Shown in pieces: positions 3,552-39,214 of a stretch of DNA of 64,000 bases. The DNA comes from Pseudomonas sp. MM223 (GTDB lineage Bacteria > Pseudomonadota > Gammaproteobacteria > Pseudomonadales > Pseudomonadaceae): NCBI GenBank assembly GCA_947090765.1, contig OX352322.1, positions 3,455,501 through 3,519,500 on the forward strand, in the 5' to 3' direction. The number at the start of each line of letters is the position of its first letter. Within the stretch, counting starts at the first letter, position 1. The notes beneath the pieces are model-generated. The model was not told where the DNA came from and ran no database searches. It was given only the letters and a program-made list of their open reading frames with translations. Position numbers and translations under genes: made by a program.

Positions 3552-3557
3552 GGTGCA

Positions 3558-19074: not shown

Positions 19075-19258
19075 GTAGAGTCTCCTCGCGCGGGTGATTT
19101 CCCGTTCTTGTTGTTTGCCTTGAGGTCACGACGGGTAAGGCAGGTCGTGCTTGGCTGACAGATAAACGCGAGTGACGAGGGATAACAAACGAATGTGGTT
19201 CCACCCAGCGGAACCAGTCGCAGAGACTGTGCACAGTGTGAGTCAGGGAGAGCTGAGG

Positions 19259-20008
19259 CAAAGCTGTAGGTGGCGTTGTTCTCGTTGACCAGTGCGGTCA
19301 GGCGTACGGGCTTGACGGACTCGTAGTGCATCCGCTGCCCTTGGCATCCTGGCGGCTGCTCGGCAGGCCACGGGCCGTGCGCATCAAGCGTGTAGTCTGG
19401 CCCTTGCCGTCGGTGTGGCTGAGTACCTGCCCGTACACGTTGTAGGTGAAGGTTTCCGCCGTGCCGTCGGGATGGCTGATGCGCAGCACTTCACCGTCGG
19501 GCTTGCGCGCCAGGGTGGTGGTCTGGTTCAGCGCATCCGTGACCGCGACCAGGTGCTGGCGCTGGTCATAGCGGTAATAGGTGCTCTTGCCCGAGCAGTC
19601 CTGGTAACGCTCCACCTGGGCCAGGGTATTCCACCAGGTACTTGGACTTGAAGGTTGCATCGATGATGGTGTGCGGCAGGCCGTCGTCGCTGTTCAGGTA
19701 CTCGGTCACCTGGCCCAGTGCATCGATTTCGGCGAGCAGGTTGCCCTTGTCGTCGTAGCGCGCCTGCCACGTGCTGCCATCCGGATAGCTGACCTTGGTC
19801 ACCAGCGTAGTCAGGTGATGATACGCATAGGCGATCTTGCGCCCCAACGGGTCGCCGTTGTGATTGATCACGGCAGTCAGCTGGCCGTGTTCGTCGTAGA
19901 GCTGCGCGAGTGTCTCGACCGCCTCATTGATGACCAGCCGGTTGATTCGGTCAGGCGCCCCAGCGGGTTGTCATAATGCACGTGCGAACGGAGGCCGCCG
20001 GTAGCGCT
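19259..20008 (-). pseudogene. Rhs core fragment, decayed
   Basis: The DNA closely matches the intact rhs gene from about 33243 to 33843 and then 34213-34350. It lacks the intervening 370 bp, the join falling at a short shared GGGTCG. There is also a 2-bp loss near 19636 (CCACCAGG against CCACCACAGG) and other frame breaks, so no continuous protein exists. It carries YD-repeat sequence only, with no N-terminus or toxin tip. It is the most distal remnant of the displaced rhs array. Confidence 0.85.
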
Positions 20009-20165
20009 TAACCTTGGGTTCCACCTTAATACGCCTTCAAGTGCTCGTTTGACTCTGAATTCTCCAAAAATATTGACATCCACGAATCCATTACATCCCA
20101 CAAATCGATTCCTTTCGTAGGAGTTGCTGGGTTTTCATGCCACCAGATAAACGCCTCACCCTTAA

Positions 20166-21356
20166 GGAAGGTCTGAAAAAGACTTCCTGAATCTGGTGAA
20201 ATACGCCGATCCCGCCAGCCGAGTTTTTCCATGAAGCAGATGACCTTCGCCGACGCCGAGTACGCCGGCAAGCGCAAGCAGACCCGTAAGGAATTGTTCC
20301 TGATCGAGATGGATCAGGTGGTGCCGTGGAAGGGATTGATTGCCCTGATCGAGCCACACTACCCAAAGGGTGAAGGTGGTCGTCCAGCCTATCCGCTGAT
20401 GGCCATGTTACGTATCCATCTGATGCAGAACTGGTTCGGCTACAGCGACCCGGCCATGGAAGAAGCGCTCTACGAGACGACCATCCTGCGTCAGTTCGCC
20501 GGGCTGAGCCTCGAGCGTATTCCCGACGAAACCACCATCCTCAAGTTCCGTCGCTTGCTGGAGAAACATGGCTGGCAGCCGGCATCCTCGGCGTAATCAA
20601 TGGCTACCTGGGGGATCGCGGCCTGTCGCTGCGCCAGGGCACTATCGTCGATGCCACACTGATCCACGCGCCCAGCTCGACCAAGAACCAGGACGGCAAG
20701 CGCGACCCGGAAATGCACCAGAGCAAGAAAGGGAACCAGTATTACTTTGGCATGAAGGCGCACATCGGCGTGGATGATGAGTCGGGGCTGGTACACAGCG
20801 TGGTAGGCACGGCAGCCAACGTGGCGGATATCACCCAGGTCGACAAACTGCTGCACGGTGACGAGAACGTCGTCTGCGCCGATGCCGGCTACACCGGCGT
20901 CGAAAAGCGCCCCGAACATGCTGGCCGCGAAGTGATCTGGCAGGTCGCAGCACGCCGCAGCACCTACAAGAAGCTCGATAAACGCAGCGCCCTGTACAAA
21001 GCCAAGCGCAAGATCGAGAAGGCCAAGGCACAAGTGCGAGCGAAGGTCGAGCACCCGTTTCGAGTGATCAAGCGCCAGTTCGGTTACGTGAAGGTGCGCT
21101 TCCGTGGCCTGGCCAAGAACACCGCTCAGCTGGTGACGCTGTTCGCGCTGTCGAACCTATGGATGGCGCGCCGACATTTGCTGACTACCGCAGGAAAGGT
21201 GCACCTGTAATGCGGAAAATGGCTGCTGCGAGGTGCTCGCGGCGGCCAAAAACGGAGAACTGAGCGGGTTACCTGGTCGAATTTGATCGACGGCCCGCTT
21301 TCAAAAGCAGCGAGGGCTGAAGTCGACCGGAAATACAGGGCTACTTCAGACCTTCC
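20166..21356. mobile_element. IS5-family insertion sequence, 1191 bp
   Basis: Perfect 12-bp terminal inverted repeats GGAAGGTCTGAA at 20166-20177 and inverted at 21345-21356, flanked by a TTAA target duplication (20162-20165 and 21357-21360). Length, terminus and target type fit IS5. It carries one plus-strand DDE transposase gene (frameshifted). It interrupts an immunity gene. Confidence 0.93.
20231..21210 (+). pseudogene. IS5-family DDE transposase, frameshifted
   Basis: Two frames join at about 20574: adding one C to CATGGCTGGCAG (giving CATGGCCTGGCAG) restores GLAAGILGVING and a 326-residue transposase, the normal IS5 length. The N-terminal DUF772-like domain is MTFADAEYAGKRKQTRKELF and onwards. 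The catalytic residues are Asp in TIVDATLI, Asp in CADAGYTGVEKR and Glu in KVEHPFRVIKRQFG. As written the element cannot make full-length transposase unless by frameshifting. Confidence 0.9.
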
Positions 21357-21919
21357 TTAAGTGCCCCCTCACCTATAGCCAAGTAATCACCAGCCCCGCT
21401 AGAAAATACGCCTAACATATTAGGAAGCGTTGGATACTCTTCGTCACATAGGTCCTTTATTTGAACAAAATCCTGCAGTCTCGATGGCCCCATGGTGCAA
21501 CCAATGTAAAAACCAAAGCCATCATGTAGCTTTGAGTAAAACTGCTTAAAGTCCGCAGGCAGGCCAGGACAGCCATCCAAATTCGAAATTTCAACACCTA
21601 CTGGAGCGCCCCCATATAGAAGCACAAATCACCATTCTCGACGTAAACATACATAAGATACGGCTTATCACTTACGGCCAGAACAGTACCTAGCACACAC
21701 TTATCAAGCCACGACCTTACCCATGGTAGTTTTTCAGAAAAATCGGCCCACTCAGCAGGGATATGTTTTTTTCCTCGTCTAAAAAACCAAAGCCAAGCCA
21801 CTGCTTGGGATACTTCACCTCAAGGGGTACATCACAAGATGTGAAATACACATCATAACCATTTAACTCAATCGCAATACGCTGCTTTAAAACCTCAGAT
21901 CAATTCATTCTCACCCCCT

Positions 21920-21985
21920 TCAATACCTTGAAAGCAAACCATTAATGTATTGCTGTAGCCCTGCCTCCAACTTAGCAGCCTTATC
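21920..21985 (-). pseudogene. Remnant tail of a lost Rhs toxin tip
   Basis: On the minus strand a 21-codon open stretch reads KAAKLEAGLQQYINGLLSRY and stops 11 bp before the ATG of the split immunity gene, with AGGGGGTGAG between. The spacing is exactly that of toxin-immunity pairs elsewhere in this array. No rhs core or longer frame is recognisable upstream through 22163. Confidence 0.35.
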
Positions 21986-22163
21986 CTAGCATTGCGGCTC
22001 GCTCCATCATTTTTCCGAGAGCGTTCGCAATGTGTTGAGTGGCACTTCGCCAAAGGGGAAAAACAAGTGGTCAAGGCCGTTCAATGGGCAATACCCGTTT
22101 TCACAAGGCACGACTTCCAATTAAGCCATCAAGAGTTTATTGAGCCGCTGCCAATCACCTTAA

Positions 22164-22574
22164 CTATTCACCTTCGTACAGCCCAACATACTTCAAGCCA
22201 TTGTAACTTGACTTAATCGGTTTGGAAATCGTCGTGCCACCGTCGGAGTACCAAAAAATTGCATTAGCTTTTAAAATCCCTAGCTTCAAACACGCTGCCT
22301 TTAGGTCCTCAATGCAGTCTTGATCAACTGCAGATTCAAGCAAAATCTCATCCAAGCTGACCTCGCGCTCTTTCCTCGGCATTATACCCATGAAGTCTTC
22401 ATCATACCACCTAACACCAATATCCCTGCAGAACCCACAAACCTTATATGCTGGATCATCCAGACCCACAGAATAGTCCAATTCAAAATAACTAATGTAG
22501 TCGCTTTCAGAAGAAAGATTAGTACCCACCCAAACATGAACCTTTTCATAACGTTCAATATCATGAGCATCCAT
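22164..22574 (-). CDS. Immunity protein, Imm22 (DUF4284) family
   Basis: A 136-residue cytosolic protein with the Imm22 pattern VHVWVGTNLSSESDYISYFELDY, read as VHVWVGT then YFELDYS, and later VCGFCRDIGVRWYDEDFMGI. Such proteins neutralise the toxin encoded just upstream. Its ATG directly follows the toxin-tip TAA, with GGAG inside the toxin 3' end, so the pair is coupled. AT-rich compared with the rhs core DNA. The promoter, if the cassette is silent, would have to lie inside the core fragment. Confidence 0.75.
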   Translation of the reverse strand: MDAHDIERYEKVHVWVGTNLSSESDYISYFELDYSVGLDDPAYKVCGFCRDIGVRWYDEDFMGIMPRKEREVSLDEILLESAVDQDCIEDLKAACLKLGILKANAIFWYSDGGTTISKPIKSSYNGLKYVGLYEGE

Positions 22575-24124
22575 TTAACGCGCTCCAAGCTTCATCTGCT
22601 TACTGTGATGAAAGTTAATTACATTCAGCGCCTGAGCCTTACTTTTGCCATGACTCAGATCTTGTATTAGTTTATTGTGGAACATTCCATACTTACCACC
22701 CGGACTTCGAAGAGCGGTTTCTACAGCCTTCTTGTTATCGACTATATCTTGAACAGAAGCGCTATTAAACCAGCTATCAAATCCATTTTTCTCCCAAGGC
22801 ACCCAACCCAGAGGGTCAATCCAAGTAGTCGGGGCGGCTACATATGCGTACAGATTAGCTCCACCTCTGATACCTATTGGATCTTGAGTGACAAACCTTC
22901 CTGACTCAGGATCATAGAAACGAAAAGTGTTGTAGTCTTGCCATCGCTGTTCGTCAACTCCAGCGGCGTACCAATCTGGTCAGTATGGAAGTAGTAAACC
23001 CTCTGCCCTTCCCCTTCCACCCGATCAACCCGCGCCAGCGGCGCATAGCTACCCGGCTCGTACAGGTACAAGATATCCTGCCCAGGCGTCTCCTCCCGCA
23101 GCATCCTCAGCCCTTGCCACAAGAACCGCTTCTGCTCGACGTCACCGTTGATTTCCGCCTGCTTGGCCACCCGCCGCCCGAGGCTGTCGTAACGGTAGTG
23201 CCCGGCACTTTCCAGCGTGCCATTGACCAGCGTCTCCGCCCGCACCAGCCGGTTCTCGCAATCATAGGTAAAGTGCTGAAGCTTGCTGTGCCCCGAGCGC
23301 TTTTCGATCAAGTTGCCCCACGGATCGTAGCGATACTCCTGGTCCCGCCACTGCCTGATCCGGTTGTCCTTGACCTTGTCAAACTGCCGCGCATTGAAGT
23401 CCAGGCGGTTGGCCGCCGCGTCGTAGCGAAACTCTTCGCTGCCGATCAGTGAGCCGGTATCGCGGCTGCGCAACTGGCCGTTGGCTTCGTATTCGTACTT
23501 GATCTCGCCACGCAGCTTGTCGAGCGTGCGCACCAGTTCACCTGCCGGGTCGTACTGGTAACGGCGGTGAATCGGGTTATACGCATGCTCCACCAACAGC
23601 GACGTATTGATGCCGGTGTTGTGTATCTGGGAAAGCTTGTCAGCGGGCAACGTCGACGCAAACTGCCACGCCTTACGCCCCATCGCGTCATAACCAAAGC
23701 AACTGGTGAGCTTGCCCTGCGTGCGATACACCTCGCGATGCAGGTCGTCTCGCTCCATGTCGCTGATTACCTGGCCGTCCAGGTTTAGCTGGTGCAGGTG
23801 CCCGCTGCCATAATAGAGGTGGTTGACCTGGCGGCCATCCGGCAGGGTCAGTGTGGTCAGGTTGCTGAGTGGGTCGTACTCGTAGCCGAGCGTGCCGTCG
23901 GGGGTGATTTCTTTGGTCAGCCTGCCCAGCAGATCGTAGGCGTACTCAAGCTTTTCTTCGGTAATACCAAGCTGCTTGCCGACAGTGCTGGGTTGCCTCT
24001 CGATGCTCGGTAACCGGTTGCCATCGTCATAGGTGAACTGCTGCTGGGTGTCGCGATTGAACTTGCTGATCAAGCGGCCGAAAAGATCGCGCTCGAACAG
24101 CGTGTGAGCGTTTCGAGTTAACAC
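22575..24124 (-). pseudogene. Displaced rhs-core/toxin-tip cassette (orphan 5), internally deleted
   Basis: The 5' part (24124 to about 22950) is nearly identical at DNA level to the intact rhs core (YD repeats, DTGSLIGSEEFRYDAAANRL). At about 22940 the frame jumps from LTNSDGK straight into YNTFRFYDPESGRFVTQDP. The stretch IVWQATYRSWG...LRFQGQY is missing, and the reading frame is broken. After the junction WIDPLGW comes a short unknown tip of about 80 residues (WEKNGFDSWFNSASVQDIV; KYGMFHNKLIQDLSHGKS; NFHHSKQMKLGAR). It has no N-terminal PAAR or start of its own, so it is an archive cassette rather than a working effector. Confidence 0.8.
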
Positions 24125-24275
24125 AGACCTTGCAGATGGAGGTCTCTGAGATTTCTTGCTCGAAATTTTCTTACCGTAGCGGCTAAAACGTATGTCGCAG
24201 CCAAAATTTTAAAGATCAACAGTGGTACTTATTGGCAACTAAACGCACGCCAGCAGACCATTACTCCAATAAACA
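24125..24275. other. Cassette spacer
   Basis: 151 bp of AT-rich sequence between the 5' end of orphan 5 and the stop of the next immunity gene. The rhs homology stops abruptly near 24110. No gene or clear hairpin is seen. Confidence 0.5.
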
Positions 24276-24890
24276 CTATAAAAGTCCGGCAAGCAGTGAA
24301 GTATCGTACTCTTTATTCTTAACTATTCTCTTTGAGCTCATTGCCTCTTTTATTTTAGCAGAACTTCCAGCCACCCCATAAATCTGAGCAGCACAATGTA
24401 TGAATACAGCTGGATAAGAGTATTCATCCGGAGCGGACAGAACATCACCTACTGTCCGCTCAGCAGGCACGATGCAGGCTAAAACCTTAGGAACATAGAA
24501 ATCCTCCAACACAAGCCGAACATGAGCGCAAACTTCATCCGCGAAATCGGGAGTTGGTGTTTTTATAGCGCCACTAAAGTCGCCACTGAACCGTTTATTT
24601 TGTTCGCCAGAAGATACAAATGAAAAACAAGCATCGCTAAACAGATTACTATTATAAGGAGGTGCAAAGTTAGATATGCACTCAAAAATCTCACCTCCAT
24701 TCACGATCCCTCCAAGCACATAAGAATCAACACGCGCAAGGTGATCAAAGAAAAGTTCACCTACATACTTTTTATCGTGCTTAAATTTTAATTTATTTTT
24801 CGATGCCACCACGCCGTCGAACTTAGAGGCAACAATCTTAAGCCCCCTCAGCAGAATTTTTTCAAAATACAGCCGATTCTCTGCGCTCAT
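24276..24890 (-). CDS. Putative immunity protein of unrecognised family (partner of PD-(D/E)XK-like tip)
   Basis: A 204-residue, AT-rich gene starting 3 bp after the upstream toxin-tip stop. It begins MSAENRLYFEKILLRGLKIV and contains FDHLARVDSYVLGGIVNGGE, later DEVCAHVRLVLEDFYVPKVL and VFIHCAAQIYGVAGSSAK. No signal peptide or TM segment, so cytosolic, as expected for an inhibitor of a nuclease. I do not recognise the family. Its role is inferred from position only. Confidence 0.6.
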   Translation of the reverse strand: MSAENRLYFEKILLRGLKIVASKFDGVVASKNKLKFKHDKKYVGELFFDHLARVDSYVLGGIVNGGEIFECISNFAPPYNSNLFSDACFSFVSSGEQNKRFSGDFSGAIKTPTPDFADEVCAHVRLVLEDFYVPKVLACIVPAERTVGDVLSAPDEYSYPAVFIHCAAQIYGVAGSSAKIKEAMSSKRIVKNKEYDTSLLAGLL

Positions 24891-24893
24891 AAC

Positions 24894-25793
24894 TCACCGA
24901 TATCTAAGAACATTAAATACTGCATCATGCACAGCCCCTTTGCCACCAAGTAATTTTTCGCGTGCGCTTTTAGTATCCAGCTTCAACTTCGCCGCGGTGC
25001 CACTTGATGGTGTAATGCTGCCTCCCCCAAGATGCTGCGTGGAATTCGCAGGATTACTCATATCGAACACTCCGGAGGCTTTTTGATTTTTAGTGAGGGA
25101 TCCCGCCCCATGTTTCACCTCGAATACATGCAAATTCCCATGAGCATCTCTAGCAACAAAATCCGCTCTAACCCTGCTTCCATTAACCTTCATGGTAACT
25201 TCTTCGGCAACGATTTTAAAGCCATTACGCTCCAAGTCATGCATCGCCTTCGATCGTCCTTTATCACCACTTATAGCGCTTTTACACAAGCCAAATGGAT
25301 CAATCCAAATTAATGCATTTGGCGCATACTCATAAAGGTTATAACCACCTTGAAGACTTATAGGATCTTGCGTAACAAATCGGCCTATCTCTGGATCAAA
25401 ATATCTAAATAAATTATAGTGCAGTCCTATTTCAGGATCCAGATATTGGCCTTGAAACCTTAGATTTTGCTCAACTTCATTGACATTTAAATTTTCTACC
25501 GCCCCCACGAACGATACGTCGCCTGCCAAACAATCCCGCCATCACTATCCGTCAACTCCAGCGGCGTACCAATCTGGTCAGTATGGAAGTAATAGACCTT
25601 CAGCCCTTCCCCTTCCACCCGATCAACCCGCGCCAGCGGCGCATAGCTACCCGGCTCGTACAGGTACAGGATATTCTGCCCAGGCGTCTCCTCCCGCAGC
25701 ATCCTCAGCCCTTGCCAGAGGAAGCGCTTTTGTTCGGACTCGCCATTGAATTCAGCCTGCTTGTCAACCCGCCGCCCGAGGCTGCCGTAAGGG
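24894..25793 (-). pseudogene. Displaced rhs-core/toxin-tip cassette (orphan 4), PD-(D/E)XK-like nuclease tip
   Basis: A short rhs core piece (25793 to about 25500; GLRMLREETPGQNILYLYEPG) continues in another frame from 25529: adding one G to the G-run at 25498-25503 gives TYRSWGAVENLNVNEVEQNL. After WIDPFGL the tip of about 130 residues contains RVRADFVARDAHGNLHVFEVKHG, a D...ExK pattern typical of PD-(D/E)XK nucleases, then GSLTKNQ. The last residues are HDAVFNVLRYR. The target is probably nucleic acid. It lacks an N-terminus, so it is a silent or donor cassette. Confidence 0.72.
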
Positions 25794-26018
25794 CATGCCC
25801 GCCACGAAACCGTTGATATGCCGTTGACCAGAGGCCAGAGCGTTCAAGCATGTCTCGCCATCCAGCACCGTTAGCAGAACATACAGATTACACCGTCGGA
25901 CATCAGGCGGTCGCTCAGGGCCGCGCGCGCCCCCGATCATGGGATTCAATACAGAATTCCTTTCCGTTGATTACGGGGCGCACTACATAATCTCAGTAGA
26001 AGAGGGGCGACAATTAAA
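25794..26018. other. Unassigned junction DNA
   Basis: 225 bp between the rhs-core start of orphan 4 and the next immunity gene. It is GC-rich (unlike the immunity genes) and does not match the rhs core. A 61-codon minus-strand frame (25764-25949, containing LDGETCLNALASGQRHINGF) crosses the junction. It may be part of a lost element that broke the core here. Confidence 0.35.
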
Positions 26019-26624
26019 CTATGCTACCTGCACAAAAAAGCAGCCATCACTCTTGTAATCTCCCAAAGTCCTATTGATCATCAAATACCCTACCCCATCC
26101 GTCATATAAAGCGCATCTTGATAGGGTGCAGGAAAGTCTGACGAGTAGACCTGGCACAGAAAATTGAAGCTCTCAGAAATCTCATCTGGAATTAAAGCAC
26201 CTAACGGTGGATTGATGGCAGAAAGTGAAGAAACACTTAGCTCACCATCATCGATATAGCACTCCTCAAAGTCCGCAAACCGAAGAGGAATCGACGAGCG
26301 CGGCGACTTAACGACCTGCTCACTCTCGGAATGTACAACATAAGTATATGATGCCACACCCTTGCTCTGCTGGACTTCATCAACGGTAATCAAATCAATA
26401 AAGTATTCATCCGGATCATATGTGGAAAAGACATGCAAAAAACCGCTCAATGGAAGATCCGTGCGCTTCAGTCGACACCTTGCAACATTGCAGTCAATCG
26501 TAAAAAGAAGAAGAAGATCTTGGCCTTCAGCATTTTGGGGCCATTGCGCCAAACGCGCACTGTCACCACCAAAGACAAATGGCCCTTCACTTGCAGTCGC
26601 AACTATTTTGTGCGCTTTCATCAT
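26019..26624 (-). CDS. Putative immunity protein, DUF1963/YwqG-like
   Basis: A 201-residue cytosolic protein whose start overlaps the toxin-tip stop (TGATG). The stretch FGGDSARLAQWPQNAEGQDL followed by LLFTIDCNVARC resembles the opening of YwqG/DUF1963 proteins, and the end VGYLMINRTLGDYKSDGCFF also fits. YwqG-like proteins occur as immunity partners in polymorphic-toxin loci. The match is by eye and weak. AT-rich composition and position right after a toxin tip support immunity function. Confidence 0.6.
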   Translation of the reverse strand: MMKAHKIVATASEGPFVFGGDSARLAQWPQNAEGQDLLLLFTIDCNVARCRLKRTDLPLSGFLHVFSTYDPDEYFIDLITVDEVQQSKGVASYTYVVHSESEQVVKSPRSSIPLRFADFEECYIDDGELSVSSLSAINPPLGALIPDEISESFNFLCQVYSSDFPAPYQDALYMTDGVGYLMINRTLGDYKSDGCFFVQVA

Positions 26625-28653
26625 CAGCCTCCGGTGCAGCCACTTAAGCTGCGATAGAATTTTTTAGCTTGTCTTTTAAGAGCTTTCACTCTACTTGCCG
26701 GCACACCAGCTTTACGCAATGCGCCTGACGTAATGTCTAGCTCTCGCTTTAGGCTAGGTGCAAAATCATTTTTACCGAGCCCTTGACTTGCTCTAATCTG
26801 CGTCTCATGCCAATGCGCACCGCCCACACCACGAGTATCTTTGGCTGGACCTCGGGTATGGTGATCCAAATCCAGGGCAATTGAGGGGTTACCAGCAAGA
26901 CGCGTAGCTTTCGTCGCAACCTCCTGCTGAACCAAAAACTCGTGTCGCAGTAACTCATGCGCTTGCAAGTTATCACCCACATGCAAATCACCGTTTAAGC
27001 CACCATAAGTCCCAAGCTCAAATAGATTAGCTAAACCTTGAGGATCCACCCAGCCAGTCGGGTTGGATGCATATTTGTAAAAATTTATCCCCCCTTCCAA
27101 TCCTATCGGGTCCTGAGTCAAAAATCGGCCAACCGCAGGATCATAGAACCTGAAAGTGTTGTAGTGCAGCCCGGTTTCACTATCAATATATTGGCCTTGA
27201 AAACGCAGGTTCTGCTCGACCTCTTTGACCGGTAGGCCCTCTACAGCACCCCACGAGCGATACGTGGCCTGCCAAACGATCCTGCCATCACTATCCGTCA
27301 ACTCCAGCGGCGTACCAATCTGGTCAGTATGGAAGTAGTAAACCCTCTGCCCTTCCCCTTCCACCCGATCAACCCGCGCCAACGGCGCATAGCTACCGGG
27401 CTCGTACAGGTACAGGATATCCTGCCCAGGCGTTTCCTCCCGCAGCATCCTCAGCCCTTGCCACAAGAAGCGCTTCTGCTCGACGTCACCGTTGATTTCC
27501 GCCTGCTTGGCCACCCGCCGCCCGAGGCTGTCGTAACGGTAGTGCCCGGCACTTTCCAGCGTGCCATTGACCAGCGTCTCCGCCCGCACCAGCCGGTTCT
27601 CGCAATCATAGGTAAAGTGCTGAAGCTTGCTGTGCCCCGAGCGCTTTTCGATCAAGTTGCCCCACGGATCGTAGCGATACTCCTGGTCCCGCCACTGCCT
27701 GATCCGGTTGTCCTTGACCTTGTCAAACTGCCGCGCATTGAAGTCCAGGCGGTTGGCCGCTGCGTCGTAACGAAACTCTTCGCTGCCGATCAGTGAACCG
27801 GTATCGCGGCTGCGCAACTGGCCGTTGGCTTCGTATTCGTACTTGATCTCGCCACGCAGCTTGTCGAGCGTGCGCACCAGTTCACCTGCCGGGTCGTACT
27901 GGTAACGGCGGTGAATCGGGTTATACGCATGCTCCACCAACAGCGACGTATTGATGCCGGTGTTGTGTATCTGGGAAAGCTTGTCAGCGGGCAACGTCGA
28001 CGCAAACTGCCACGCCTTACGCCCCATCGCGTCATAACCAAAGCAACTGGTGAGCTTGCCCTGCGTGCGATACACCTCGCGATGCAGGTCGTCTCGCTCC
28101 ATGTCGCTGATTACCTGGCCGTCCAAGTTTAGCTGGTGCAGGTGCCCGCTGCCGTAATACAGGTGGTTGACTTGGCGGCCATCCGGCAGGGTCAGTGTGG
28201 TCAGGTTGCTGAGTGGGTCGTACTCGTAGCCGAGCGTGCCGTCGGGGGTGATTTCTTTGGTCAGCCTGCCCAGCAGATCGTAGGCGTACTCAAGCTTTTC
28301 TTCGGTAATACCAAGCTGCTTGCCGACAGTGCTGGGTTGCCTCTCGATGCTCAGTAACCGGTCGCCATCGTCGTACGCGAATGTTTGGCTCGTGTCGCGG
28401 TTGATCTTGGCAACCAGCCGGCCAAGGGTGTCGCGCTCAAACAGGGTGTGGCGCTCTGGACGTTCGGCATTTTCGCCGTAGCCAATCTCATCCAGACGCG
28501 TGAGATGGCCACCAACGTTGTAGCTGAAACGCCGGGTCAGGTTATCCACCCGCACCTCTTCGCTCAACCGGTCCGACACGTCGTAGGCAAAGCTGTAGGT
28601 GGCGTTGTTCTCGTTGACCAGTGCGGTCAGGCGGATGGCCTTGTCGTACTGCG
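26624..28653 (-). pseudogene. Displaced rhs-core/toxin-tip cassette (orphan 3) with DHH/HWHE-rich tip
   Basis: The frame is open from 28653, where homology to the intact rhs begins (matching 33302 leftward); the first usable start is GTG 28579 (SDRLSEEVRVDN), giving 651 residues. About 500 residues of YD-repeat core end at WVDPQGL. The tip of about 135 residues reads NLFELGTYGGLNGDLHVGD, LRHEFLVQQEVATK, LDLDHHTRGPAKDTRG, GGAHWHETQIRASQGLG and a basic tail RVKALKRQAKKFYRS. The clustered His/Asp suggests a metal-dependent nuclease, but I do not recognise the family. There is no PAAR, trafficking domain or promoter, so it is probably a silent donor cassette. Confidence 0.75.
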
Positions 28654-28897
28654 GAGCATCACTTTAAAAAGAAGCGAATGAAACAAAGTCGGCACCCACT
28701 TCTGCTTCAATGATGTTAAAGAACTGTCACTGAGAGTCAAAAGCCCCAGCCAACAAATCACTATCCCCGCGTCTAAAAATAGGTGCCAGACGCATCAAAG
28801 AAAAATAGACACTAAAATTTAACCATCGTGCGCCCCATATTTTATCTGCATATGCCAAGCAAATAAAAAACACCCTACTCAAATCAATCTTCAAACA
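28654..28897. other. Cassette spacer
   Basis: 244 bp of AT-rich DNA between the end of rhs homology and the stop of the next immunity gene. No gene, hairpin or repeat is evident. Confidence 0.5.
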
Positions 28898-29563
28898 TCA
28901 ATCTTTTTCAAAGAGCTCCTTGACATCTTCATCCCCCATCTGCTCGTATGGAGGTAGCCCTATAGAATCGTCCTCCGATATTTTCTGCTGATTCTCATTA
29001 ACATCGATGCTTTTCAAGTCGTGTGGAGCCGTGCCAAATACAAACCTCAACCCATCCACTTTCTTATCATTTTCCCCTTCCGCATTACCAACTACACACC
29101 ACTCCCCCTCCCCCATTTCCAATAAAGAAAAAGTGTCCAATATAACTGGGAATTTTTTAATTTTATTTATGACAGATAGACCCTTGCTGGGCGAAGCAGC
29201 TGTCTCAGAGTAAATTTCCGACACATAACCTAATTCAATTTTTTTTATTAGCCTTGCAAATCCGTATACTTCCTCATCAATCTTGAAAGCAACAACATCA
29301 CCTGCAGAGTACTTGACAGCTTTATTTTTGCGCACTAGAACACCCTCATGATTAGCTAAACTGGTTTGCAGTTCATCAAAGAAGCCGGGGCCATTAGCCT
29401 TGAGAGACAAATCAATCATATATCGTATCTCTTCAACCACCGGCCGTCGGCCCAAAGATTCGAGATATATCTCCTGCAGCTCCTCCAACAGATTCCCAAT
29501 CCGATCCAAGGGAATACCACCAACAATCAATTCAGTTTGGCTTGGCACACTCCACCACCCCAT
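28898..29563 (-). CDS. Immunity protein, Imm26-like
   Basis: A 221-residue protein. The middle segment YSAGDVVAFKIDEEVYGFAR followed by LIKKIELGYVSEIY matches the Imm26 pattern (G-D-x-x-A-F ... Y-G-x-x-R) seen in immunity proteins of polymorphic toxins. It is preceded by an N-terminal helical part (PSQTELIVGGIPLDRIGNLL). The acidic C-terminus (EQMGDEDVKELFEKD) suits binding a basic nuclease. It lies 79 bp after the GIY-YIG-like toxin tip. AT-rich. Confidence 0.65.
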   Translation of the reverse strand: MGWWSVPSQTELIVGGIPLDRIGNLLEELQEIYLESLGRRPVVEEIRYMIDLSLKANGPGFFDELQTSLANHEGVLVRKNKAVKYSAGDVVAFKIDEEVYGFARLIKKIELGYVSEIYSETAASPSKGLSVINKIKKFPVILDTFSLLEMGEGEWCVVGNAEGENDKKVDGLRFVFGTAPHDLKSIDVNENQQKISEDDSIGLPPYEQMGDEDVKELFEKD

Positions 29564-29642
29564 CGTTAAAACTCCTCAGCAGGCTATGGAACTCGACATT
29601 GTTTTTTCACCGAGAGCTGATGTTTTTCCATTGAAGCTATTT

Positions 29643-30632
29643 TCAAAATACTGCTGCCGAGCTCGCAGATCTCGTTCTATTCTGATGGTCGTACGAATTG
29701 ATCTTATTACCTCTATCGGTGCCCGAGATAGCTTCACCTACAACACCAGTTTTGGTGCCGTGATGCTCAATGTAGGCTTGCTCGTAGCCACGAGCCTGCC
29801 CGTAGGTCACATTACGATCAAGCATCTTCATCTTTCCACCATTTAATCTGCCACTAGCAACATGTTCACCACGACGCCTGGTTACGTCATCGGTAAATCC
29901 AATATAATAAGGATCTTTAGCTGCCTTATCATACCGTGCGTAAACAAAATAGCCAGGTGCAGCTTCCGCCACCCATCCTAGAGGATCGACCCAAGCGACA
30001 GGATTGGAAGCATAGAAGTAGAGATTGGATCCCCCGTCGATTCCGATTGGGTCCTGGGAAATATACCTACCTCCTGTAGCGTCATAGTAACGGAAGGTGT
30101 TGTAGTGCAATGCCGACTCTCCATCCAAGTACTGGCCCTGGAACCGAAGGTTTTGTTCCACGTCATCGATAATCAGATGCTCTATAGCCCCCCATGAGCG
30201 ATAGGTCGCCTGCCAGACGATCTTGCCGTCACTGTCTGTAAGCTCCAGCGGCGTACCAATCTGGTCAGTATGGAAGTAGTAAACCCTCTGCCCTTCCCCT
30301 TCCACCCGATCAACCCGCGCCAGCGGCGCATAGCTACCCGGCTCGTACAGGTACAAGATATCCTGCTCAGGCGTTTCCTCCCGCAGCATCCTCAGCCCTT
30401 GCCACAAGAAGCGCTTCTGTTCGACTTCGCCGTTGGTTTCCGCCTGCTTGGCTACTCGCCGCCCAAGGCTGTCGTAACGATATTCGCCTTTGCTCTCCAG
30501 CGTGCCATTGACCAGCGTTTCCGCCCGCACCAGCCGGTTCTCGCAGTCATAAGTAAAGTGCTGAAGCTTGCTGTGCCCCGAGCGCTTCTGGATCAGGTTG
30601 CCCCAAGGGTAGTAGCGATACTCCTGAGGCAC
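29643..30632 (-). pseudogene. Displaced rhs-core/toxin-tip cassette (orphan 2), GIY-YIG-like tip
   Basis: An uninterrupted 329-codon frame whose first 210 residues are rhs core, starting abruptly at EYRYYPWGNLIQKRSG. After the junction WVDPLGW the tip of about 110 residues contains FVYARYDKAAKDPYYIGFTD followed by DVTRRRGEHV, then YEQAYIEHHG and NKINSYDHQNRTRS. The Y...YYIG(x)T...R...EH arrangement is that of GIY-YIG nucleases. It has no PAAR or N-terminal region, so it would need recombination into the intact rhs gene to be delivered. Confidence 0.72.
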
Positions 30633-30642
30633 AAATTGAATG

Positions 30643-30660
30643 CTGAGGCTTTCGCCTCAG
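30643..30660. terminator. Hairpin downstream of the SUKH immunity gene
   Basis: CTGAGGC at 30643-30649 and GCCTCAG at 30654-30660 form a perfect 7-bp stem with a 4-base loop, nested inside an outer ACAAAT/ATTTGT pair. It lies between orphan 2 and the immunity gene of the intact rhs and may end that transcript. The rhs homology of orphan 2 stops right beside it. Confidence 0.55.
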
Positions 30661-30784
30661 TCCTTCGGGCTTGATTTGTTAATGATCAGAAACTCAAGCA
30701 CTAGAATTTAGGAAAATCAAGAGCTGACATGGAATGATAAAAAATCGCGCAAACTACAGAGCAGCCTGCAATAAAACAAAAGCC

Positions 30785-31276
30785 TTATATATCAACCTCA
30801 CTCTCATCCACCAATGACTGAATAAACACCTCAAAAGATGGCGAAAGTATTTTTTGAGCATTGACATGATTCACGTACATGTCAACATCCGGCTGAAAGA
30901 CATCGACTGCAAAATAAACCACCTGACCACCATTCTTTTCAAGACAAATAAAATTCCCTGCCTCATCAACTGCGAATGGTACTAAATGCTGTGGCAAAAC
31001 ATTTTTGCCAGTCATCACATTGAAACATCCTCCAATATATTTGGTCTCTTGCCTGTCAGAGCTTTCAAATCGTGCAATGGACTTAAAATCTTCGACCCTA
31101 ATCGGCTCATAACCTTCATCCTCCGCCCAAAACTCCCGACTAGGAGCCCCACCATTGAAGGATAAATAAAGATCCCTGAATGCTAACGGGAATTTTATGC
31201 CGACCTCCGATTCAAGCGCATCAATCTCCCAATCCGAAATAGGAGTATCGGAATTTAACAATTCAAAATCATTCAT
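30785..31276 (-). CDS. SUKH (SMI1/KNR4) family immunity protein
   Basis: A 163-residue cytosolic protein. The SUKH pattern is clear: DWEIDALESEVGIKFPLAFR, then DLYLSFNGGAPSR, VEDFKSIARF, LVPFAVDEAGNFICL and a C-terminal FEVFIQSLVDE. SUKH proteins are common partners of WHH/HNH toxins. It starts 10 bp after the intact rhs stop and so should protect against the WHH-type tip of that effector. Confidence 0.85.
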   Translation of the reverse strand: MNDFELLNSDTPISDWEIDALESEVGIKFPLAFRDLYLSFNGGAPSREFWAEDEGYEPIRVEDFKSIARFESSDRQETKYIGGCFNVMTGKNVLPQHLVPFAVDEAGNFICLEKNGGQVVYFAVDVFQPDVDMYVNHVNAQKILSPSFEVFIQSLVDESEVDI

Positions 31277-31286
31277 TATAAAAGTC

Positions 31287-34200
31287 TCAGCACGTTGTAG
31301 ATGATGTTTTTTGTGGGCGTCCTTTCAGCCACCCTTTATCCTGCGAAATAGCAACAGCTTCGGGCGTACCGTAAGATCCTGAGGGCAAGCCAAAATGCTT
31401 TTCGAACTGCGCAACTGAACCAGTGTGCGGCAACGAGGCTTCGTGCGCTGACTGAGTTATCAATTGCATAGTACCCTTACCCGTTACAGGGTCGAAATCA
31501 TCCAAGTGATGCCACGTGTATTTACCCATTGATTTTACTTGAGCTTTCGTCAATCCAGCCTGCTTATACGCTTCGGTGAAGTCTCGCCCCCGAGCCCCTT
31601 GCAACTGAATCGACACAATATTTTTCTGAAGCCCTGTAACAGGAAACAAATCTGGCGACCCTTCAAAATTAACGCTTTTGAATGATAGCCCCCAAGGATC
31701 AATCCACGATATCGCATTTGGCCCATAGTGGTATAAATTTACACTACCCTCTAGCCCAATAGGGTCTTGCGTTACGAATCGCCCGACTTCAGAATCGTAG
31801 TATCGAAAAGTATTGTAGTTCAGCCCGGTTTCAAAATCGTGGTATTGCCCCTGAAATCGCAGGTTCTGTTCAATCTCATGGACAGAAAGGCTCTCTACCT
31901 TCCCCCACGACCGGTACGTCGCCTGCCAAACAATCTCGCCATCACTATCCGTCAACTCCAGCGGCGTACCAATCTGGTCCGTATGGAAGTAATAGACCTT
32001 CTGCTCCTCCCCTTCCACCTGATCAACCCGCGCTAACGGCGCATAGCTACCGGGCTCGTACAGGTACAGGATGTTCTGCCCAGGCGTCTCCTCCCGCAGC
32101 ATCCTCAGCCCTTGCCACAAGAAGCGCTTCTGTTCGACTTCGCCGTTGGTTTCCGCCTGCTTGGCTACTCGCCTCCCCAAGCTGTCGTAACGATACTCGC
32201 CTAGGCTTTCCAGTTTGCCATCGAACAACGTCTCCGCCCGCACCAGGCGGTTTTCGCAGTCATAGCTGAAGTGCTGAAGCTTGCTGTGCCCCGAGCGCTT
32301 CTCGACCAGATTGCCCCACGGGTCATAGCGATACTCCTGGTCCCGCCACTGCCTGATCCGGTTGTCCTTGACCTTGTCAAACTGCCGCGCATTGAAGTCC
32401 AGGCGGTTGGCCGCCGCGTCGTAGCGAAACTCTTCGCTGCCGATCAGTGAGCCGGTATCGCGGCTGCGCAACTGGCCGTTGGCTTCGTATTCGTACTTGA
32501 TCTCGCCACGCAGCTTGTCGAGCGTGCGCACCAGTTCACCTGCAGGGTCGTACTGGTAACGGCGGTGAATCGGGTTATACGCATGCTCCACCAACAGCGA
32601 CGTATTGATGCCGGTGTTGTGTATCTGGGAAAGCTTGTCAGCCGGCAACGTCGACGCAAACTGCCACGCCTTACGCCCCATCGCGTCATAACCAAAGCAA
32701 CTGGTGAGCTTGCCCTGCGTGCGGTACACCTCGCGATGCAGGTCGTCTCGCTCCATGTCGCTGATTACCTGGCCGTCCAGGTTTAGCTGGTGCAGGTGCC
32801 CGCTGCCGTAATACAGGTGGTTAACGTGGCGGCCATCCGGCAGGGTCAGTGTGGTCAGGTTGCTGAGTGGGTCGTACTCGTAGCCGAGCGTGCCGTCGGG
32901 GGTGATTTCTTTGGTCAGCCTGCCCAGCAGATCGTAGGCGTACTCAAGCTTTTCTTCGGTAATACCAAGCTGCTTGCCGACAGTGCTGGGTTGCCTCTCG
33001 ATGCTCAGTAACCGGTCGCCATCGTCGTACGCGAATGTTTGGCTCGTGTCGCGGTTGATCTTGGCAACCAGCCGGCCAAGGGTGTCGCGCTCAAACAGGG
33101 TGTGGCGCTCTGGACGTTCGGCATTTTCGCCGTAGCCAATCTCATCCAGACGCGTGAGATGGCCACCAACGTTGTAGCTGAAACGCCGGGTCAGGTTATC
33201 CACCCGCACCTCTTCGCTCAGCCGGTCCGACACGTCGTAGGCAAAGCTGTAGGTGGCGTTGTTCTCGTTGACCAGTGCGGTCAGGCGGATGGCCTTGTCG
33301 TACTCGTAGCGCACCCGCTGGCCCGTGGCATCCTGGCGGCTGCTCGGCAGGCCACGGGCCGTGCGCATCAAGCGTGTGGTCTGGCCCTTGCCGTCGGTGT
33401 GGCTGAGTACCTGCCCGTACACGTTGTAGGTGAAGGTTTCCGCCGTGCCGTCGGGATGGCTGATGCGCAGCACTTCACCGTCGGGCTTGCGCGCCAGGGT
33501 GGTGGTCTGGTTCAGCGCATCCGTGACCGCGACCAGGTGCTGGCGCTCGTCATAGCGGTAATAGGTGCTCTTGCCCGAGCAGTCCTGGTAACGCTCCACC
33601 TGGGCCAGGGTATTCCACCACAGGTACTTGGACTTGAAGGTTGCATCGATGATGGTGTGCGGCAGGCCGTCGTCGCTGTTCAGGTACTCGGTCACCTGGC
33701 CCAGTGCATCGATTTCGGCGAGCAGGTTGCCCTTGTCGTCGTAGCGCGCCTGCCACGTGCTGCCATCCGGATAGCTGACCTTGGTCACCAGCGTGGTCAG
33801 GTGATGATACGCATAGGCGATTTTGCGCCCCAACGGGTCGGTTTCTTCCAGCAGGCGGGCGTATTCGTCGTACTTGAATGCGAGCCGGTTACCGTCCGGC
33901 AAGCCCAGGCCGACCATGTTGCCCTGCTCGTCCAGCTCGACGGTGTAACGCTCGCCGCCATAGTCGCGGCTGGCCACCACACGGTGATCGGCGTTGTACT
34001 GCACTTCCAGCTCCCGACCGAGCACGTCCGTGGCCCAGCTGGTACGGGCATCGAGGTCGTAACGGAAGTGATAGTGCTCGCCATCGCTGGTCCAGTGTTC
34101 GACCACCCGCGGCTTATCGCCCTGGGTTTCCCAGCGGTAGTGGCAACCCAGCCCCAAGGCGTTGCCGTGGCTCACCATCAGGCCTTCGGCGTAGCTGAAG

Positions 34201-35510
34201 CTGCGCACGGTGTCGCCGTTGCGGTTGATCACCGCATTCAGTTGACCGTGTTCGTCATAGCGGTACTGGGTGAGCGTTTCGACCGCCTCATTGTTGACCA
34301 CGCGCTTGATGTCAGTCAGGCGGCCGAGCGGGTTGTCGTAATGCAGGTGCACGCGGGTGCCGCCGGTCGCGCTGATGTCGGTCAACGTGCCATCGGGAGT
34401 GCGGGTGAAATGCAGGAAGTGACCGAGGGCGTTCTCGATGCGTTGCAGAGGTACTTCGGTGTTGGTGTCTGGCACTTCGCCGAAGTAGAAGAACAGGTTG
34501 TCGAGGGTTTGCAGGATGTAGTGGCCGCCCTCGGTGCATACCAGGTAGACCTGTTCGTGCGGGTTGTAGATGCGTTCGCCCGGTTGCAGGGTCACGAACG
34601 GGACTTCGCGGCCCTGGTTGTCGGTGAGGTAGATAAATGAGCCCTGGCGGCGCAGGCTTTGCTCCCACGGCAGCACCCAGCCGCGGCCAAGCACGCTATC
34701 CACAGTAAGGTCGCTGGCGTAGAAGCGCGACCACTCGATCGGCATCAAGCCCGGCAGGCTGAAGTCGATTTCATCGGGGATCAGTTTACGGCCAGTGGTG
34801 AGGTCGACCGGGTTGCCGACCAGGCCGCCTATGGCCTTGCGGGCCACAGGCTCGACCACGTAGCGGCTGGCTACCTCACCGGCAACGAAGCCTGCGGTGA
34901 ACTTCAGGGCGCAGGGCATCACGGCTTTCATGCCGGCTTGAGTACCTGCCTTGATCAGCTGGGCAATACCACCAGCAGCGCCCGCAATGGCCATCAGCAC
35001 ATCCACGGTGGTACGCAGCCATTCCGGGATTTCGTCGTCCACTGGCAGGTAGCGGTAGGTGCCGCCGCCAATGATCACGTTGTCCGAACCACCGGAAATG
35101 GTCGCGCCGCAGGTCAGCTTGTCACCCTTGCGCGCAGCCGCCACGCTGTTGATGAAGACATTGGTCGAGCCTTCGGCAATCTGCACCGGCCCCGGGTGTT
35201 TGTCGCAGGCACCGATGCTTTTTTCGACGCGGGCAGCCTTGCGGCTGTTGATGAAGACGTTGGGTGAGGCAGTGGTTATCGTCCCTGAGGGGGACGAGAA
35301 CATACTGCCTATCGCCTCTCCGGCAGCGGTCAGCAAGCTGCCTCCAATACCGGCTGCGAGGCCCGCCAGCAACGCCACGCCGAACCCACAGGTAAAGGTG
35401 GCGATGGCCACCGTCGCCACCAGGGCAATACCGAGGGCGGCGCCAATCAGAAAGCCCCCCAACGCGCTGGTGTGCGATATCTCGTCGCCGAACCTGGCCG
35501 CTTCGAACAT
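31287..35510 (-). CDS. rhs: PAAR-Rhs T6SS effector with WHH-type nuclease tip
   Basis: A 1407-residue effector. Residues 15-70 are hydrophobic (prePAAR-type transmembrane segments, ALGGFLIGAALGIALVATVA) and residues about 80-155 a PAAR-like domain with repeated NVFINS. A DUF6531-type segment near 230 (NPVDLTTGRKLIPDEIDF) starts the Rhs cage with many YD repeats. The core ends at DPIGLEGSVNLYHYGPNAIS followed by WIDPWGL, the autocleavage region. The tip (from about 1276, 132 residues) contains GKYTWHHLDD, MQLITQSAHE and PHTGS, the WHH nuclease pattern. Upstream DUF1795 proteins should chaperone the TM segments, and VgrG carries the PAAR. It is the only rhs in the window with an N-terminus. Confidence 0.93.
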   Translation of the reverse strand: MFEAARFGDEISHTSALGGFLIGAALGIALVATVAIATFTCGFGVALLAGLAAGIGGSLLTAAGEAIGSMFSSPSGTITTASPNVFINSRKAARVEKSIGACDKHPGPVQIAEGSTNVFINSVAAARKGDKLTCGATISGGSDNVIIGGGTYRYLPVDDEIPEWLRTTVDVLMAIAGAAGGIAQLIKAGTQAGMKAVMPCALKFTAGFVAGEVASRYVVEPVARKAIGGLVGNPVDLTTGRKLIPDEIDFSLPGLMPIEWSRFYASDLTVDSVLGRGWVLPWEQSLRRQGSFIYLTDNQGREVPFVTLQPGERIYNPHEQVYLVCTEGGHYILQTLDNLFFYFGEVPDTNTEVPLQRIENALGHFLHFTRTPDGTLTDISATGGTRVHLHYDNPLGRLTDIKRVVNNEAVETLTQYRYDEHGQLNAVINRNGDTVRSFSYAEGLMVSHGNALGLGCHYRWETQGDKPRVVEHWTSDGEHYHFRYDLDARTSWATDVLGRELEVQYNADHRVVASRDYGGERYTVELDEQGNMVGLGLPDGNRLAFKYDEYARLLEETDPLGRKIAYAYHHLTTLVTKVSYPDGSTWQARYDDKGNLLAEIDALGQVTEYLNSDDGLPHTIIDATFKSKYLWWNTLAQVERYQDCSGKSTYYRYDERQHLVAVTDALNQTTTLARKPDGEVLRISHPDGTAETFTYNVYGQVLSHTDGKGQTTRLMRTARGLPSSRQDATGQRVRYEYDKAIRLTALVNENNATYSFAYDVSDRLSEEVRVDNLTRRFSYNVGGHLTRLDEIGYGENAERPERHTLFERDTLGRLVAKINRDTSQTFAYDDGDRLLSIERQPSTVGKQLGITEEKLEYAYDLLGRLTKEITPDGTLGYEYDPLSNLTTLTLPDGRHVNHLYYGSGHLHQLNLDGQVISDMERDDLHREVYRTQGKLTSCFGYDAMGRKAWQFASTLPADKLSQIHNTGINTSLLVEHAYNPIHRRYQYDPAGELVRTLDKLRGEIKYEYEANGQLRSRDTGSLIGSEEFRYDAAANRLDFNARQFDKVKDNRIRQWRDQEYRYDPWGNLVEKRSGHSKLQHFSYDCENRLVRAETLFDGKLESLGEYRYDSLGRRVAKQAETNGEVEQKRFLWQGLRMLREETPGQNILYLYEPGSYAPLARVDQVEGEEQKVYYFHTDQIGTPLELTDSDGEIVWQATYRSWGKVESLSVHEIEQNLRFQGQYHDFETGLNYNTFRYYDSEVGRFVTQDPIGLEGSVNLYHYGPNAISWIDPWGLSFKSVNFEGSPDLFPVTGLQKNIVSIQLQGARGRDFTEAYKQAGLTKAQVKSMGKYTWHHLDDFDPVTGKGTMQLITQSAHEASLPHTGSVAQFEKHFGLPSGSYGTPEAVAISQDKGWLKGRPQKTSSTTC

Positions 35511-35516
35511 GAGGGG

Positions 35517-35981
35517 TTACTCCTGTTCGCCGGGCTCGGCGCGGGTTACCGGCGTGCGCGGGGTGAAGCTCGCCAGCAGGTTGTCCCAGTCCTGGTTTTG
35601 CCGGGCACTGAAATCGGCCTGTGCAGTGGTGGAGAAGATCAGCGCACGGCCGGGGCTGATGACGAAGGCGGCCTGGCGTTGGTATAGCGGGCGGCCTTGG
35701 TTCATGTAATAGGCGTCGATCTGGATACCGGCAATGGGTGCGGTAGCCGACAGCGCGACGGCCTTGTTGCCCATGCGGGTATAGCCGCGCAGCTTGGACG
35801 TAAGCATTTTGACCTGGCGATCGACATACGCCTGCAACGCTTCGTCCGGCAGCAGGGTGTCACGCGAGATGGTGATGCTCAACGGTGCGGGAACACTGGC
35901 ACCCAAGACGAACATGTTGACCGTGCGGTCCTCGAAACCTGCCGGCAGCGCGATGCCGCCTTCCTGCAACTCGTAATCCAT
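35517..35981 (-). CDS. DUF1795 (DcrB-like) Eag-type chaperone
   Basis: A 154-residue protein when started at ATG 35981 (MDYELQEGGIALPAG); a longer reading would overlap the neighbouring gene. Family features are FEDRTVNMFVLG, SITISRDTLLPDEALQAYVD and the C-terminal DWDNLLASF. DUF1795 Eag proteins bind and protect the N-terminal transmembrane helices of prePAAR Rhs effectors before loading on VgrG. It lies 6 bp before the intact rhs start, exactly where such a chaperone is expected. Confidence 0.85.
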   Translation of the reverse strand: MDYELQEGGIALPAGFEDRTVNMFVLGASVPAPLSITISRDTLLPDEALQAYVDRQVKMLTSKLRGYTRMGNKAVALSATAPIAGIQIDAYYMNQGRPLYQRQAAFVISPGRALIFSTTAQADFSARQNQDWDNLLASFTPRTPVTRAEPGEQE

Positions 35982-36013
35982 GAAATGAAAATTCCTGATA
36001 GCGAAAAATGGGG

Positions 36014-38474: not shown

Positions 38475-38506
38475 GATCGTCCTCGAGGCGTGTTGCGTAA
38501 CAGGCC

Positions 38507-39211: not shown

Positions 39212-39214
39212 ATT

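Follow-up and report, generated by a model that had tools for sequence, protein, structure and literature searches.

A displacement array of Rhs tips and immunity genes behind a type VI secretion PAAR-Rhs effector gene in Pseudomonas sp. MM223

Composition of the array

We analyzed a stretch of 64,000 nucleotides from Pseudomonas sp. MM223 (contig OX352322.1, positions 3,455,501 to 3,519,500), referred to as the window, in which an intact gene for a PAAR-Rhs effector is followed by displaced pieces of Rhs core with tips and immunity genes of their own. The original prediction, made from the sequence alone, had described a six-part archive of toxin modules. We found this to be a fair description, as all of the listed pieces are present: the intact gene, four displaced core/tip/immunity modules, a decayed module and a bare core fragment. 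We read the locus, with a probability of roughly 0.87, as an Rhs C-terminal displacement array that was built by recombination in the core and belongs to a type VI secretion system (T6SS) PAAR-Rhs effector. The array lies on the minus strand in the order W1, W2, W3, W4, W5, SMI1 remnant with an insertion sequence (IS), and bare core fragment. Positions are those of the window, and reference coordinates along the core start with nt 1 at window position 35529.

31287..35510, minus strand: W1, intact PAAR-Rhs effector gene, 1407 aa (prePAAR_I, PAAR, DUF6531, RHS repeats, WHH)
31290..31685, minus strand: tip 1, WHH-type HNH/ENDO VII nuclease, on W1 (WHH 1.9e-14)
30785..31276, minus strand: immunity 1, SMI1/KNR4 (SUKH-1) (1.1e-19)
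29973..30626, minus strand: W2, displaced core end, reference nt 3191 onward (83.7% to W1 over 547 columns)
29646..29972, minus strand: tip 2, GIY-YIG-like nuclease (GIY-YIG E=0.0011, below the Pfam cut-off)
28898..29563, minus strand: immunity 2, weak Imm26 match (5.1e-4, below the cut-off)
27032..28650, minus strand: W3, displaced core, reference nt 2226 onward (92.9% to W1 over 1581 nt; 99.0% upstream of nt 3190)
26627..27031, minus strand: tip 3, no Pfam family matched
26019..26624, minus strand: immunity 3, weak DUF1963 match (5.6e-4, below the cut-off)
25287..25843, minus strand: W4, displaced core end with one stop and a frameshift (from self-match and reading frames)
24897..25286, minus strand: tip 4, weak NERD/UPF0102 matches (E=0.03)
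24276..24890, minus strand: immunity 4, shared with a second locus (96.8% block with L031:11211-12257)
22936..24106, minus strand: W5, displaced core, reference nt 2426-3596 (92.8% to W1; ~99% at nt 2531-3190)
22578..22802, minus strand: tip 5, out of frame with the W5 core and internally deleted relative to its relatives
22164..22574, minus strand: immunity 5, Immunity protein 22 family, DUF4284 (2e-19)
~20044..22000, minus strand: the decayed module, an SMI1/SUKH-type immunity remnant, frameshifted and split by an IS (homologue in G057)
20161..21361, plus strand: IS5-like element, DDE transposase in two frames (DUF772/DDE_Tnp_1)
19256..20008, minus strand: bare core fragment, reference nt 1157-1323 and 1690-2291 (80.8% and 97.5% to W1)
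35517..36113, minus strand: DcrB-domain gene of an EagR-type chaperone (DcrB 2.2e-37)
36609..38600, minus strand: vgrG, T6SS spike gene upstream of the array (Phage_GPD 1e-100, Gp5 domains)

Self-matches within the array reach 1581 nt at 92.9%, which excludes chance. The N-terminus of W1 matched prePAAR_I (9.2e-23) and PAAR (1.5e-17). The succession of prePAAR, PAAR, DUF6531, Rhs shell and C-terminal toxin is that of T6SS class I prePAAR Rhs effectors, from which we noticed no difference in W1, and the likeness extends to the DcrB/EagR-type gene and vgrG upstream and to the adjoining T6SS cluster. Solved relatives of W1 are found among Rhs effectors (7q97 and 7pq5), the best being 7q97, 'Rhs family protein'. 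We take the group name 'class I prePAAR' from the Pfam model name. EagR is presumably the right name for the DcrB-domain gene, several homologues of which begin near 36017. T6SS genes on the plus strand occupy 42.8-56.9 kb and account for seven of the eight frames examined (41.3-56.9 kb); they encode sheath, TssF, TssG, an AAA+/ClpB-type ATPase, TssJ, a VasE/TssK-type protein and IcmF. At the other end, beyond the bare core fragment, lie conserved flank genes for an M20 peptidase, a transporter and an amidase.

The tips and immunity genes are AT-rich and unrelated, as had been predicted: their GC content is mostly 0.40-0.50 against ~0.58-0.65 in the core, and they belong to different families or to none. 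The weak NERD/UPF0102 matches suggest a nuclease fold for tip 4. Judging by family, each pair would consist of a delivered, toxic tip and a protein conferring immunity to it. W2 and W3 are open frames, each followed by an open immunity gene; W4, W5 and the decayed pieces at the bottom look like fossils. The decayed module had been predicted correctly, and its immunity remnant is homologous to an uninterrupted SMI1_KNR4 gene in a related species (G057, L043:7913-8608). The inserted element had not been named by the prediction; we take it to be IS5-like from DUF772/DDE_Tnp_1. It has 17-nt perfect inverted repeats (20161-20177 and 21345-21361) and is present in nine copies in the genome at ~100% identity, the array copy included.

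Core identity, recombination and a second Rhs locus

The cores had been predicted to be nearly identical. This held for the upstream parts of W3 and W5 (96-100%, apart from one variant block) and failed close to the tip, where identity is ~67-75%, and for W2 and W4, which keep only the divergent core end and are 83.7% and 80.4% identical to W1 overall. Identity was computed per 100-nt interval, and S1 to S3 denote core copies of a second Rhs locus described below. W3 was 97-100% identical to W1 in each interval up to nt 3200, W5 96-100% from nt ~2501, and S3 96-100% from nt ~2601. Near-identity to the W1 core is thus a property of W3 (nt 2226-3200) and W5 (from nt 2501), with homology of ~960 nt at 99.0% and 660 nt at 98.9%, respectively, and not of W2 or W4. 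The longest exact tracts shared with W1 measured 394 nt in W3, 218 nt in W5, 174 nt in the bare fragment, 85 nt in W2 and 44 nt in W4. The variant block spans nt 2426-2530, where W5 is 77.7% identical to W1; here W5 and S2 share one variant (102/103) and S3 has another, all at 76-78% to W1. At nt 2531-2700, S3 is 92.9% identical to W1.

Beyond nt 3200, W2 to W5 were 75-88% identical to W1 at nt 3201-3400, 92-96% at nt 3401-3500 and 82-89% at nt 3501-3650. A conserved island at nt 3401-3500 was 92-99% identical among all copies compared, while nt 3651-3806 was 65-82% identical among copies. Where the core adjoins the tip, W2, W3 and W4 were 67-72% identical to W1. The base-by-base alignment that had been proposed as a check found upstream cores that have not diverged.

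The second Rhs locus (L031) lies on the same chromosome at 1.935-1.943 Mb, ~1.5 Mb from the array. Its gene S1, a frame of 1401 aa, matched W1 at 97.6% identity along 3774 nt, the match beginning 19 nt ahead of the start codon; the synonymous divergence (dS) between the two cores was 0.018-0.019 (0.018 over codons 1-800). Its tip and the gene at the immunity position both differ from those of W1, and we found no vgrG or EagR homology upstream of S1. Directly after the S1 tip and the gene at the immunity position, L031:11211-12257 matched window 24892-23847 at 96.8%. The matching block comprises immunity 4, the junction and the start of core 5, without tip 4; in L031 another short frame and a SUKH gene come after it. 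The two loci, whose attached tips differ, therefore have a displaced block in common. In Pseudomonas plecoglossicida NBRC 103162, an Rhs gene with upstream vgrG was found at both sites (L067 between the S flanks and L068 beside the T6SS flank), the two being 88.6% alike from vgrG to Rhs. These comparisons indicate that DNA has moved between the W and S loci, whether S was converted by W or replaced by a W copy. We also observed that immunity 4 persists in L031 without tip 4 (L031:11195-11825), with a start that differs at the junction and a stop near the end. The third Rhs locus of this genome (G000:C1:2951375-2957106) is distant, at 30-53% protein identity, and has several core pieces.

We ran ten triplet permutation tests for mosaic structure with 20000 shuffles each, the P values not being corrected for multiple tests. 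None of the 20000 shuffles reached the observed value for W3 as a mosaic of W1/W5, S1/W5 or W1/S3, or for S1 as a mosaic of W1/W5 or W1/W3, and 14 did so for W5 as a mosaic of W3/S3. Both significant S1 breakpoints fell at nt 3397-3455, the conserved island. A tree built on nt 2531-3190, from the 41 copies that reached 500 nt, placed the five long enough copies of this genome (W1, W3, W5, S1 and S3) in one clade with 100/100 support. In a tree of nt 3340-3774 (37 copies), W1 stood apart from W2, W3, W4 and S1 with modest support.

The dS among these five cores was 0.02-0.07, and that of W3, W5, the bare fragment and S3 to W1 was 0.023-0.045. In comparison, W1 and the second Rhs core of the sister species G057 differ by a dS of 0.41, W1 and the first G057 core by 1.1, and W1 and the intact core of another related species, G065, by 0.57; seven flank genes each gave 0.24-0.44 for G057 and 0.43-0.71 for G065. 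The mosaics, the second locus and these dS values together indicate that homologous recombination between core copies has occurred.

The differences between these core copies were almost all synonymous, with synonymous/nonsynonymous counts of 9/1 for W1-W3, 6/1 for W1-W5 and 7/0 for W3-W5; the bare fragment, of which part was counted, had three of each relative to W1. Under neutral decay in both copies, 0 nonsynonymous among 7 differences (W3-W5) has P ~5e-5; the corresponding value of 3e-5 for W1-W3 makes too strong a case, W1 being under selection. The W3 and W5 cores were thus either split off recently from functional genes or renewed by copying from such genes.

Related genomes and the spread of tip families

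The genome collections contained one genome per species, so that the sister comparison was made with two related species, G057 and G065. In both, the same chromosomal site was recognized by both flanks, with the right edge at window 19215 and 19218. Rather than a fixed arrangement, both species show a main gene that ends in a different tip and a different succession of modules. G057 has a full-length Rhs (1430 aa), a second Rhs (1338 aa) without residues ~53-148, and further open frames. Five successive open frames lie between the second Rhs and the common flank (L043:5648-9516), two of which match immunity proteins, one SMI1_KNR4 and the other a homologue of the immunity gene of the second locus. 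The G065 site comprises an intact gene and, as displaced material, three long cores plus a terminal fragment of core; among them is a tip-5-type module whose immunity-5 homologue has 81% protein identity.

Displaced core fragments of at least 150 nt were found at 31 of 35 comparable loci, from 71 loci examined. Comparable loci were those with a full-length core and at least 3 kb downstream, and some genomes contribute two. 'Full-length' here means an alignment that begins no later than nt 480 and extends to at least nt 3300, which is not proof of an intact gene: 6C6, two H9 loci and the second Rhs of G057 are without N-terminal parts or cut by contig ends. Two overlapping loci, L129-L131, the loci L034-L038, L044 and L045, most of which duplicate named ones, and L047-L049 were left out of the count. 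Where at least 150 nt of the upstream part was available, 37 of 55 displaced cores were closer to the full-length core of their own genome than to that of any other genome. Downstream of nt 3300, 17 of 35 were closest to their own.

Searches with each tip covered 268 Pseudomonas genomes, our own included. Matches were found in 15 genomes for tip 1, 7 for tip 2, 16 for tip 3, 14 for tip 4 (several of them weak) and 7 for tip 5. With frame length as a proxy for attachment, matches lay on frames of at least 1300 aa at 7/16 places for tip 1, 3/8 for tip 2, 9/17 for tip 3, 4/16 for tip 4 and 4/9 for tip 5. Of the four long-frame places of tip 4, two are weak and lie in frames of around 3000 aa, and the long-frame matches of tip 3 are only 33-39% identical. 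Every tip family also occurs in frames of less than 500 aa. The tip families thus appear on frames of full-length size as well as on short ones.

The context was viewed in G152, G065, G195 and P. entomophila 4A7. A tip of type 1 is on the main gene of G152. In P. entomophila 4A7, a tip-5 type ends a 1407-aa Rhs frame and is followed by a 65% identical immunity-5 homologue; the tip-5 piece of the window aligns with gaps across the whole of this longer tip. Tip 5 is therefore attached in 4A7 and displaced in the window and in G065, these being different species and not strains of one. As a separate observation, immunity proteins were less conserved between species than tips (window 26019-31685; L035, L037): 37% against 82% for pair 3, 44% against 70% for pair 1, and 31%, over part of its length, against 52% for pair 2. 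The exception is pair 5 in comparison with G065, with 81% for immunity and 69-74% for the tip pieces.

P. entomophila gives a further comparison. The intact core of 4A7 pairs with a displaced core of 6C6 at nt 2677-3190 (100/100; dS 0.105), compared with a dS of 0.42 between the 4A7 and 6C6 main cores and 0.53 between the intact and displaced cores of 4A7 itself. The reverse pairing is weak (dS 0.34). The main Rhs of 6C6 is without the usual N-terminus, its 1851-aa frame running on from a neighboring T6SS gene. The 6C6 array also holds transposase-like frames, and 4A7 and 6C6 (L071, L100) make a good pair for studying exchange.

We considered dating the deep layers by vertical descent and rejected it. 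Immunity 5 has a dS of 0.96 to G065, above the flanks (0.43-0.71). Of the four SMI1-remnant pieces, three have a dS of 0.65-1.16 to G057, above flanks of 0.24-0.44, and the fourth (22 codons) has 0.26. Since the deep immunity genes exceed the flanks, we make no claim that the layers predate the species splits. The order of the modules had been read as a history of weapon changes. The immunity-4/core-5 block at the second locus fits such a history, which is plausible, only partly supported and undated.

Upstream of the array, the open frames 38510-39211 and 39218-40495, between vgrG and the left flank, have no Pfam match. Window 38148-41050 had no match of at least 150 nt in G057, with homology starting again at 41050, and the two frames are possibly another variable effector module. 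The vgrG gene (36609-38600) has a dS of 1.3 and a dN (nonsynonymous divergence) of 0.26 to G065, far above its neighbors, which suggests that part of it has been replaced. PADLOC matches were weak.

Origin of the array and its place among known systems

Arrays of this kind have been described before. Jackson et al. (2009, BMC Genomics 10:584, PMC2935791) present Rhs C-terminal displacement arrays, such as SMA1610-1616 of Serratia marcescens Db11, and propose that a circle integrates through the core and shunts the old tip downstream. The likeness covers one intact rhs gene, partial cores of varied length, unrelated low-GC tips, near-identical cores within the locus, some frameshifted fragments, bare core fragments and exchange within one core clade. 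There, tips are attached in one strain and dissociated in another; here this is seen between species, for tip 5. The present array differs in being in Pseudomonas, T6SS-linked and with its immunity genes resolved, in having one IS insertion, in sharing a displaced block with a second locus, and in that the last ~500 nt of the core diverge with the tip. We conclude that it is a real and well-formed member of this known kind.

The second precedent is rhs-main/rhs-orphan of Salmonella Typhimurium (Koskiniemi et al. 2014, PMC3967940), where experiments showed that an orphan can be recruited by way of a 522-bp homology at 95%, a prior duplication of the locus was proposed, and strains are reported to have as many as eleven orphan modules. 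Our array is alike in having orphan tips and immunity genes downstream and core homology long enough for recombination, that of W3 (~960 nt, 99.0%) and W5 (660 nt, 98.9%) being longer and closer than in Salmonella. Switching in Salmonella is experimental; here it is deduced from sequence.

In the displacement model, new tip and immunity pairs would arrive on DNA that also carries Rhs core, and recombination in the core would attach the incoming tip to the intact gene; several of these events would have left the previous tip downstream, together with its immunity gene and a 3' portion of the core. The original prediction held that core recombination could swap any tip into the intact gene and keep the replaced one downstream. 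Recombination between cores is borne out, and 'any tip' goes too far: W2 and W4 have only ~500 nt in common with W1, at 80-84%, and their longest exact tracts (85 and 44 nt) are shorter than those of W3 (394 nt) and W5 (218 nt). Given its open frame and its 394-nt exact match, W3 would be the likeliest reservoir. The retention step is not supported as written: a single crossover between direct repeats deletes the intervening tip and immunity gene. In the case of W1 and W3, such an event would remove tip 1 and immunity 1 along with module 2, so that it could recruit an orphan without keeping the old tip. Retention would require a duplicated locus, an inserted circle or a second homology arm; both this step and any present-day switching are inferred. 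One version, with the displaced core of the donor usually serving as the right-hand arm, predicts shared junctions, the 5' ends recurring across species behind a common upstream flank. We rejected this version, the 5' ends being scattered from reference nt ~600 to ~3600. Four loci have 5' ends clustered at nt 949-956 (five rows, two of which are overlapping pieces of one contig), with no common upstream flank among the matches listed.

Several results weigh against displacement by core recombination. Among the matches listed, only W5 and the second locus share a junction with its upstream flank, so that the test for insertion of a circular intermediate found mosaics and, among these matches, a common left junction once. 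The test of W5 as a mosaic of W1/S3 was weak (198/20000), and three of the ten tests were not significant (W5 from W1/S2, 1673; S3 from W1/W5, 2064; S1 from W1/W2, 4033 of 20000). For 18 of the 55 displaced cores, the full-length core of another genome was at least as close as their own. The displaced cores of G065 have a dS of 0.31-0.57 to their own intact core, like values between species. Near-identity within a genome is therefore not universal, and general homogenization of displaced cores is ruled out.

The alternatives differ mainly in what becomes of the displaced pieces. They could form a pure fossil bed, in which tips displaced by imported DNA only decay and are never reused. The broken state of W4, W5, the SMI1 remnant and the bottom fragment fits this, as do promoter-like sites for the orphan modules, of which we found 7 against 11.0 expected and hence no excess. 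The open frames and open immunity genes of W2 and W3 argue the other way, as do the tip families that end full-length-size frames elsewhere and the orphan recruitment shown in Salmonella (PMC3967940). We consider a fossil bed quite possible, while leaning against it.

Alternatively, the pieces could be silent cassettes, a maintained reservoir like Neisseria pilS whose cores are kept fresh by gene conversion from intact genes. The near-absence of nonsynonymous differences (P ~5e-5 for W3-W5) would be expected, and so would the 97.5% identity to W1 still found in a 602-nt piece of the bottom fragment and the W1-S1 dS of 0.018-0.019 at two sites that are 88.6% alike in P. plecoglossicida. However, recent displacement of functional cores would look just like this with no maintenance needed, synonymous and nonsynonymous differences are equally many in the counted part of the bottom fragment, W4 and W5 are broken, and G065 is without homogenization. 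We judge maintained cassettes unlikely. A broader version, in which displaced cores are maintained recombination arms, gene conversion within and between the two Rhs loci keeps them in functional condition, and tip and immunity blocks move between sites ~1.5 Mb apart, the array being a working, chromosome-wide reservoir of spare T6SS tips and not debris, seems to us a little less likely again.

An assembly artefact at the repeat is very improbable: the contigs of several relatives end inside rhs, a repeat that is hard to assemble, but this assembly has 2 contigs and 99.93% completeness, the copies differ at many sites, and similar arrays occur in independent genomes. Least credible is tandem duplication of one rhs gene with tips then mutating independently, since tips and immunity genes are of different families or none and have homologues in other species, and a core dS of ~0.04 leaves no time for such divergence.

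The array carries the enterobacterial model into Pseudomonas with immunity genes resolved. What it adds is a second locus with a common displaced block, and W3 and W5 cores in which nonsynonymous change is nearly absent. The locus also provides a natural test: two Rhs sites, both occupied in P. plecoglossicida, have almost identical cores and different tips here, so that strain comparison could distinguish a fossil bed from a maintained reservoir. With displaced cores at 31 of the 35 comparable loci, orphan modules are a normal feature of this gene family, and annotations should therefore not list them as toxin systems in their own right.

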